A DNA stretch of 64,000 nucleotides, from assembly GCF_900182955.1 (NCBI RefSeq), contig NZ_FXUL01000004.1:62001-126000 (forward strand). Direction: 5' to 3'. The notes under the pieces are model-generated. The model had not been told where the DNA came from. It did not search any database and saw only the letters and a list, made by a program, of their open reading frames with translations. The position numbers were made by a program, and so were the translations under genes. Source of the DNA: Noviherbaspirillum suwonense. Lineage in GTDB: Bacteria; Pseudomonadota; Gammaproteobacteria; Burkholderiales; Burkholderiaceae_D. Positions 36,386-36,787 of the stretch are shown piece by piece. Every line of letters starts with the position of its first letter. Positions within the stretch are counted from its first letter, which is position 1.

Positions 36386-36387
36386 GC

Positions 36388-36417
36388 TTGACAGCGGTTC
36401 GCCGCGTCCCTTAAGGT
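36388..36417 (+). promoter_or_regulatory. candidate leuA promoter
   Basis: A consensus TTGACA (36388-36393), 18 bases, then TAAGGT (36412-36417) start right after the terminator. This would give a leader of about 365 bases before leuA. The -10 match is weak. Confidence 0.5.
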
Positions 36418-36570
36418 TCACCCATGTCTTCCGCTCACCCACCTCTCTTTTCGTTCAGCCCGCGCGCCAGCCTGCTGCCAGCGCTACGACTACGCCTGCC
36501 GCTATAACAGCAGGCAGCAAGTCCGCGCCGGTGTTCCGGCCCCAGGCAAATTGAACGAAAGACCGTGAGC

Positions 36571-36696
36571 ATGTATTCGAAGGCCATATCCCCCGCAAGC
36601 TGCACCCAAGGCGAATTTCCGCATTCCTCCGGTCGCGCACGCGCCGTTGCAATCCTCCTGCTACTACTACCGATCGGTTGCCTGGCCTCGCGTTGA
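36571..36696 (+). CDS. putative Leu-run leader peptide of leuA
   Basis: A 41-codon ORF from ATG 36571 to TGA 36694-36696, 91 bases before leuA. Codons 29-33 are five consecutive Leu (CTC CTG CTA CTA CTA), three of them CTA, which is rare beside the usual CTG of this genome; the context is [14 protein letters not shown] at 36565 is an alternative start. This mirrors the leuL attenuator peptides of other proteobacteria. Ribosome-binding site support is weak and no T-run terminator follows; a stem GACCG-TTCAC-CGGTC lies at 36749-36763. Confidence 0.55.
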
Positions 36697-36787
36697 GTGG
36701 CAGTCCGGCAGCCTTTCCGCCACATCCGAATTTCCCTTCCGTTTTCGCGACCGTTCACCGGTCACCTGTACCAGACAAGGAATTGCC

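Follow-up and report, generated by a model that had tools for sequence, protein, structure and literature searches.

How is the leuA gene of Noviherbaspirillum suwonense controlled, and does the run of leucine codons in front of it take part? We addressed this question in a 64,000-nt stretch of the genome (the window; all coordinates refer to its positions). The gene encodes a 2-isopropylmalate synthase of the long type, as defined by TIGR00970 and NF002991:

36788..38455, + strand: leuA, 2-isopropylmalate synthase (555 aa); TIGR00970 814 bits (cut-off 697), NF002991 906 bits (cut-off 455)

An initial annotation of this DNA had drawn attention to a short leucine-rich ORF just upstream and likened it to the leuL attenuators. 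We regard the existence of a conserved leader of leuA as near certain and consider it very likely that this leader senses leucine by way of the ribosome. The best explanation of the results, to which we assign a probability of roughly 0.72, is that leuA is preceded by a conserved leader that acts in cis and senses leucine at two stations. From comparison of sequences, it is probably a ribosome-gated pseudoknot leader, a variant that resembles the LEU element of Actinobacteria. A search of the open PMC literature found no description of a leuA leader in Burkholderiales.

Leucine codons and paired helices at the end of ORF2

The annotated ORF, here ORF2, begins with ATG and closes with TGA. Its length, its five consecutive leucine codons and its end 91 nt before the leuA ATG at 36788 are as first described:

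36571..36696, + strand: ORF2, 41-aa leader ORF with the leucine run, its stop codon in the loop of stem S1 (sequence and conservation)
36655..36669, + strand: five leucine codons, CTC CTG CTA CTA CTA, the last ending 6 nt before S1 (sequence)

Over the nine codons before S1 in 90 loci, leucine accounts for 355 of 810 codons in the ORF2 frame, compared with 19 and 41 of 810 in the other two frames. Thus the leucine codons and their frame are conserved, the point on which the initial annotation had staked its proposal. CTA makes up 201 of these 355 leucine codons; in leuA itself, at the loci compared, it accounts for only 19 of 2084, so the codon is rare by that comparison. In 78 of 90 loci it occupies position -3 relative to S1, and in 73 of 90 position -5; the codon between the two varies. 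The position of the stop codon is also retained: 74 of 90 loci have an in-frame stop no more than 24 nt from where S1 begins, and 16 have none that close; for the other frames the count is 13 of 180. In 65 of the 90 the stop is at S1+12 or S1+18. Stop codons fall within the S1 5′ arm (S1+3) in six loci, with the RNA stem retained, and for this reason the end of the peptide does not appear to be what is kept. Over 44 pairs, differences in the body of ORF2 number 285, 277 and 374 at the three codon positions, a mild excess at the third, and the ORF2 peptide had no match in Pfam or, by tblastn, in plasmids. Given the lack of a Pfam match, the stops in the S1 5′ arm and the mildness of the third-position excess, we rejected a conserved small protein or arrest peptide.

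Right after the leucine codons comes an 11-pair stem, S1. The S1 loop pairs with downstream sequence in a 5-bp helix, S2, which gives the topology of a pseudoknot:

36676..36686, + strand: S1 5′ arm, GGUUGCCUGGC (covariation)
36697..36701, + strand: S2 5′ strand, GUGGC, in the S1 loop (covariation)
36703..36713, + strand: S1 3′ arm, GUCCGGCAGCC (covariation)
36719..36723, + strand: S2 3′ strand, GCCAC (covariation)

The window has one U-C mismatch in S1 (36683/36706); a single position of S1 lacks pairing in 22 of 90 loci, the window among them. In a first alignment of 21 loci, 7 of the 16 pairs had double-sided changes, compared with 2.0 in shuffles. The larger alignment, A2, holds 90 selected loci; near relatives of represented ones were omitted, and four loci without a match to the element (L017, L021, L022 and L023) are not part of it. 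In A2, whose sequences are related so that counts are not independent events, 97.2% of cells are paired and 11 of the 16 pairs have double changes (4.7 in shuffles, with 0 of 500 as high). These involve 8 of the 11 pairs of S1, counts that lean toward S1 because A2 was fitted to it and not to S2, and 3 of the 5 pairs of S2. Among the 78 loci outside the first alignment, 69 have an exact 5-bp partner for S2 (shuffles 5.8%) and 74 have one when G-U pairs are allowed (shuffles 31%). Compensatory stems, which the initial annotation had proposed to seek by alignment, are therefore present. It had overlooked the pseudoknot that they form, as well as a second leucine-rich ORF further upstream (36424-36507).

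The lengths of the loops are similar among loci. The loop before the S2 5′ strand measures 9-11 nt in 75 of 90 loci, and a single nucleotide separates this strand from the S1 3′ arm in 78 of 90. From the S1 3′ arm to the S2 3′ strand there are 4-5 nt in 70 of 90 loci, a short distance for bridging an 11-bp stem that is fully formed; the two helices may therefore alternate, or the foot of S1 may be partly open. Folding the window sequence on its own gave no better result than folding shuffles (z -0.03 and 0.11), and the minimum-energy fold of 36640-36740 lacks S1, the leucine run pairing with AGUGGCAG instead. An alternative hairpin between the leucine run and GUGGC, a candidate for a competing antiterminator, can be drawn; its covariation amounts to 0 cells in one register and 7 cells (2.5 in shuffles) in the other. 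Because the single sequence folds like its shuffles, the case beyond chance rests on conservation, that is, on the leucine frame, the CTA codons, the stop position and two covarying helices. None of the Rfam covariance models matched the leader region at gathering level, and a search at E up to 10 returned just two minus-strand matches, both far below cut-off. The leuA leader is thus a conserved RNA element that lacks an Rfam match.

Putative promoter, ORF1 and distribution of the element

Upstream of ORF2 we identified a putative promoter and a further leader ORF, ORF1:

36388..36393, + strand: putative leuA promoter, -35 box TTGACA (read in the sequence; layout kept in relatives)
36412..36417, + strand: -10 box TAAGGT, which resembles TATAAT weakly; 18 nt separate it from the -35 box upstream and 6 nt from the ATG of ORF1 downstream (sequence)
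36424..36507, + strand: ORF1, MSSAHPPLFSFSPRASLLPALRLRLPL followed by a stop codon, 27 aa with six leucines in the last 12 codons, probably leaderless (start judged from promoter spacing only)
36470..36515, + strand: hairpin GCCTGCTG (36470-36477) / CAGCAGGC (36508-36515), flanking the ORF1 leucine codons (sequence)

The ORF1 peptide starts at the ATG at 36424 and ends in LLPALRLRLPL. A sigma-70 scan of the window did not report the TAAGGT box. Among relatives, the layout of promoter and ORF1 (promoter score of at least 9 of 12) was found in 74 of 90 loci and in 4 of 900 shuffled sequences, and a version with tight spacing in 70 of 90 and 1 of 900; ORF1 candidates were picked partly by promoter score, and the shuffle control ran the identical procedure. 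CTA makes up 322 of the 602 leucine codons of ORF1 in the 74 loci. The gap between the -10 box and the ATG is 6 nt in 55 of these 74, a spacing that would place the transcription start on the ATG itself, so ORF1 is probably leaderless. In other families, several loci yielded no ORF1 close to the element. Where both ORFs occur, a tandem and partly leaderless leader arrangement is predicted.

The hairpin around the ORF1 leucine codons had been noted before as adding structure upstream of ORF2. The pair is present, but the structure that is conserved is the pseudoknot overlapping the end of ORF2. The fold of 36460-36520 around this hairpin is no better than shuffles (z 0.11), and RNAalifold on the sequence after ORF1 (26 loci, gappy alignment) gave no consensus structure. 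In three gammaproteobacterial leuA loci (L252, L254 and L256) we noted ORF1-like ORFs, for example MPIRTCALLRL and MNSQTVFRLLPRL, each closed by a stop codon and directly followed by a GC-rich hairpin that looks terminator-like by eye; in those loci ORF1 may thus be a classical attenuator. Another hairpin, with flanking A- and T-runs (AAAAAGTCGGCTGAAAGGCATTTCAGCCGACTTTTTT, 36350-36386), lies between a MerR-like ORF (35948-36349) and the leuA promoter and probably serves the operon upstream as a bidirectional terminator.

A DNA search matched 25 of 60 relatives, and the best-kept part was the leucine run with the sequence after it, not the start of the ORF. For genome searches we used a covariance model built on S1 alone. 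Within the family it matched 156 of 245 genomes, spread over 24 of 44 genera, and left 89 without a match. In the order, 30 of 399 genomes matched; 21 were from other families, and one of these (L090) did not have the element before leuA. Of 59 loci fetched with this model, 58 have the element just before leuA. In the class there were matches in 9 of 369 genomes, own genome included, and seven of the other eight lay before leuA, the match without leuA being L255. A broader model matched 18 of 369 genomes of the class at E up to 0.1 and added three genomes in which leuA was found (L268, L269 and L273); among the eleven class loci L267-L277, leuA was found in these three and in L267, which is the genome of L253. 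In the phylum, 17 of 398 genomes matched at E up to 0.1, and among the weak new matches leuA was nearby only in L281, a locus from another class (E 0.0157) whose leuA gene is 57% identical.

An exact pattern search returned at least 118 named stretches. Among the matches listed, 115 of 118 have leuA 90-254 nt downstream and the other three stretches end too early; the genera listed include Massilia, Noviherbaspirillum, Collimonas, Herminiimonas, Glaciimonas, Achromobacter, Bordetella, Castellaniella, Pusillimonas, Cupriavidus and Ralstonia. Cupriavidus metallidurans CH34 carries the element at L266. The element thus occurs also in other Burkholderiales families and in a few gammaproteobacteria, nearly always before leuA. 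Matches were found in 75 of 79 leuA sources, the four exceptions being the loci left out of A2. In one of them, L017 (genome G020, a close relative), the equivalent place before leuA is taken by a long inverted repeat with imperfect arms, GATGACGTTGTCGCGTC ... GACACGACGTCATC. At leuA of Burkholderia arboris (L260), a leucine-rich ORF beginning MQAAQSLFSLRLL follows close behind a TTGACA box; S1 and S2 are not obvious there by eye, and model R2 gave no significant match.

Read-out and competing explanations

Between the pseudoknot and leuA lies a stretch that bears on how the leader might act on the gene:

36724..36787, + strand: unstructured C-rich spacer with the leuA Shine-Dalgarno sequence (SD, AAGGA), a possible Rho loading region (base composition)

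In the 60 nt before leuA, C-minus-G is +0.142 (n=89, loci related to one another), compared with +0.018 (sd 0.108) in 338 other 5′ flanks, which lie 5′ of unverified ORFs from the pattern loci. A consensus scan of 36300-36850 found no terminator-like site, in agreement with the initial annotation, which had seen no T-run terminator. Among relatives, 7 of 89 loci have such a site between S1 and leuA, which is no enrichment over shuffles (9.0%), and we rejected an intrinsic terminator as the read-out. Occlusion of the SD was rejected as well, the accessibility being flat and the pairing with the leucine run no better than in shuffles. With neither an intrinsic terminator nor hiding of the SD, Rho would be the most likely read-out, otherwise RNA decay or pausing. 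Since the spacer is rich in C and poor in G, Rho acting on it is our best guess, a tentative one to which we give somewhat less than even odds.

The leader might then work as follows. The last CTA codon is 6 nt from S1, so a ribosome halted there would reach the S1 foot. When charged tRNA-Leu is short, the ribosome translating ORF2 would stall on the CTA codons, its leading edge touching the base of S1; S1 and S2 would then remain folded, and leuA would be expressed. When leucine is plentiful, the ribosome would continue to the ORF2 stop, opening S1 and covering the S2 5′ strand, and the transcript would be shut off. ORF1 would serve as a first, separate leucine sensor. The two-station logic, the direction of the effect and the ribosome stop at the S1 foot are what we infer from the layout.

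An alternative is classical leuL attenuation, in which a ribosome on the leader decides between an antiterminator and a U-tailed terminator. It would account for the presence, ahead of leuA, of leader ORFs that are rich in leucine and use the rare codon CTA, and a 1986 paper on the Salmonella leu leader is concerned, at least in part, with its rare leucine codons. In some loci, such as L077, L060 and L111, terminator-like hairpins do follow ORF1, where these sites are weakly enriched (12 of 74 loci; shuffles 8.2%). Such sites are absent from 36300-36850 of the window and at chance level between S1 and leuA in relatives, however, and the scheme has no conserved pseudoknot. We consider it unlikely for the leader as a whole, although it may well be correct for ORF1 in some relatives.

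Translational control of the LEU type is quite unlikely. Here the SD of leuA would be sequestered by pairing with the leucine run until a ribosome on the leucine codons released it. The order of parts does match that of actinobacterial leaders, whose leucine runs can pair with the SD, but in the proteobacterial set the longest helix between the two averages 4.43 bp, compared with 4.78 bp in shuffles (n=89). In a fold model that leaves out pseudoknots and kinetics, moving the ribosome from one position to another hardly alters the accessibility of the SD (mean difference -0.002, n=86), and no segment of the element pairs with the leuA start region beyond chance. These results do not bear out a read-out at the level of translation, one of the options raised earlier for this leader, in the form of hiding the SD.

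It is very improbable that the RNA is a binding site for a protein or small molecule and that the leucine codons are incidental RNA letters. The letters of S1, S2 and the loop are tightly conserved, as are the loop lengths, which would fit a binding site; no Rfam family matches it, however. The frame-specific leucine codons, the stop position and the preference for CTA in the unrelated ORF1 all indicate that it is the codons and not the RNA letters that matter. Finally, a chance ORF in a region without a regulatory role, which the shuffle-like fold of the single sequence and the mild third-position excess in ORF2 might suggest, is contradicted by conservation and covariation across families and has a negligible probability. 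A leucine-sensing leader read by ribosomes remains our preferred reading.

Comparison with known leader systems

Like the leuL attenuator of enterobacteria, the leader described here encodes a leucine-containing peptide, CTA codons included, ahead of a gene for leucine synthesis. The parallel drawn by the initial annotation therefore holds for the leucine-rich leader before leuA and fails for the terminator: there is no conserved U-tailed terminator before leuA, and this leader has a pseudoknot and two leader ORFs. Leaderless leader peptides of attenuators are known, for example trpL of rhizobia, and ORF1 likewise seems to start at the transcription start. It differs from trpL in its leucine codons and in being followed by a second leader and a pseudoknot.

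The closest likeness is to the LEU element of Actinobacteria (Seliverstov et al., 2005; PMC1262725). Its authors preferred a protein as the regulator, because codon changes in Streptomyces gave unclear results. We took actinobacterial leuA leaders from a plasmid collection and compared them with the element. In L257, L262 and L263 a script found a leucine run, 5 nt, an 11-bp stem, a stop at S1+13 and S2 downstream. L261 has the matching layout, read by hand because the script left out stems with more than two G-U pairs and made its sole match there elsewhere, and L264 has a variant layout (3 nt, stop at S1+21). Of two Streptomyces leuA copies taken along (L258 and L265), the script covered L265 and found no such structure there. 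The actinobacterial leucine runs can pair with the SD, over 6 bp in L257 and 10 bp in L264.

Both leaders precede a leuA of one protein type and contain a leader ORF with a leucine run. The 11-bp S1 begins 5 nt after the last leucine codon there and 6 nt after it here, and the stop falls in the loop, at S1+13 there and mostly at S1+12 or +18 here. S2 joins the loop to downstream sequence in all five of the leaders with such a layout (L257, L262, L263 and L264 by script, L261 by hand). In contrast, the base stem between leucine run and SD, a defining feature there, is absent here, and the leucine codons are CTA here and CTC or CTT there. The loop before the S2 3′ strand, 4-5 nt here, is 9-14 nt in L257, L261 and L262, 4 nt in L263 and 8 nt in L264. 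The second leader ORF, ORF1, and the variable distance to leuA are both peculiar to the leader described here. Model R2, built on the present element and run with filters off, had no match at S1 of L257 or L261-L264. Neither of the two elements matches an Rfam family. Because the base stem is absent and the model does not match, we file the window element as a variant that would work like the LEU element and not as a member of it.

We suggest, as a speculative and on balance doubtful extension, that gating of a pseudoknot by the ribosome is an ancient way of regulating leuA genes of this type, common to Actinobacteria and Proteobacteria. A ribosome halted at the leucine codons and docked on the pseudoknot, at a spacing of 5-6 nt like that of frameshift stimulators, would keep leuA on by barring Rho, with no part for an antiterminator hairpin. 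In Burkholderiales the device would stand behind a leaderless first sensor, as a two-step leucine gate. The occurrence of a LEU-like layout in proteobacteria, with fixed rare CTA codons and without the SD stem, argues for a ribosome-based sensor, and it offers harmless hosts with tractable genetics for testing, such as Cupriavidus metallidurans.
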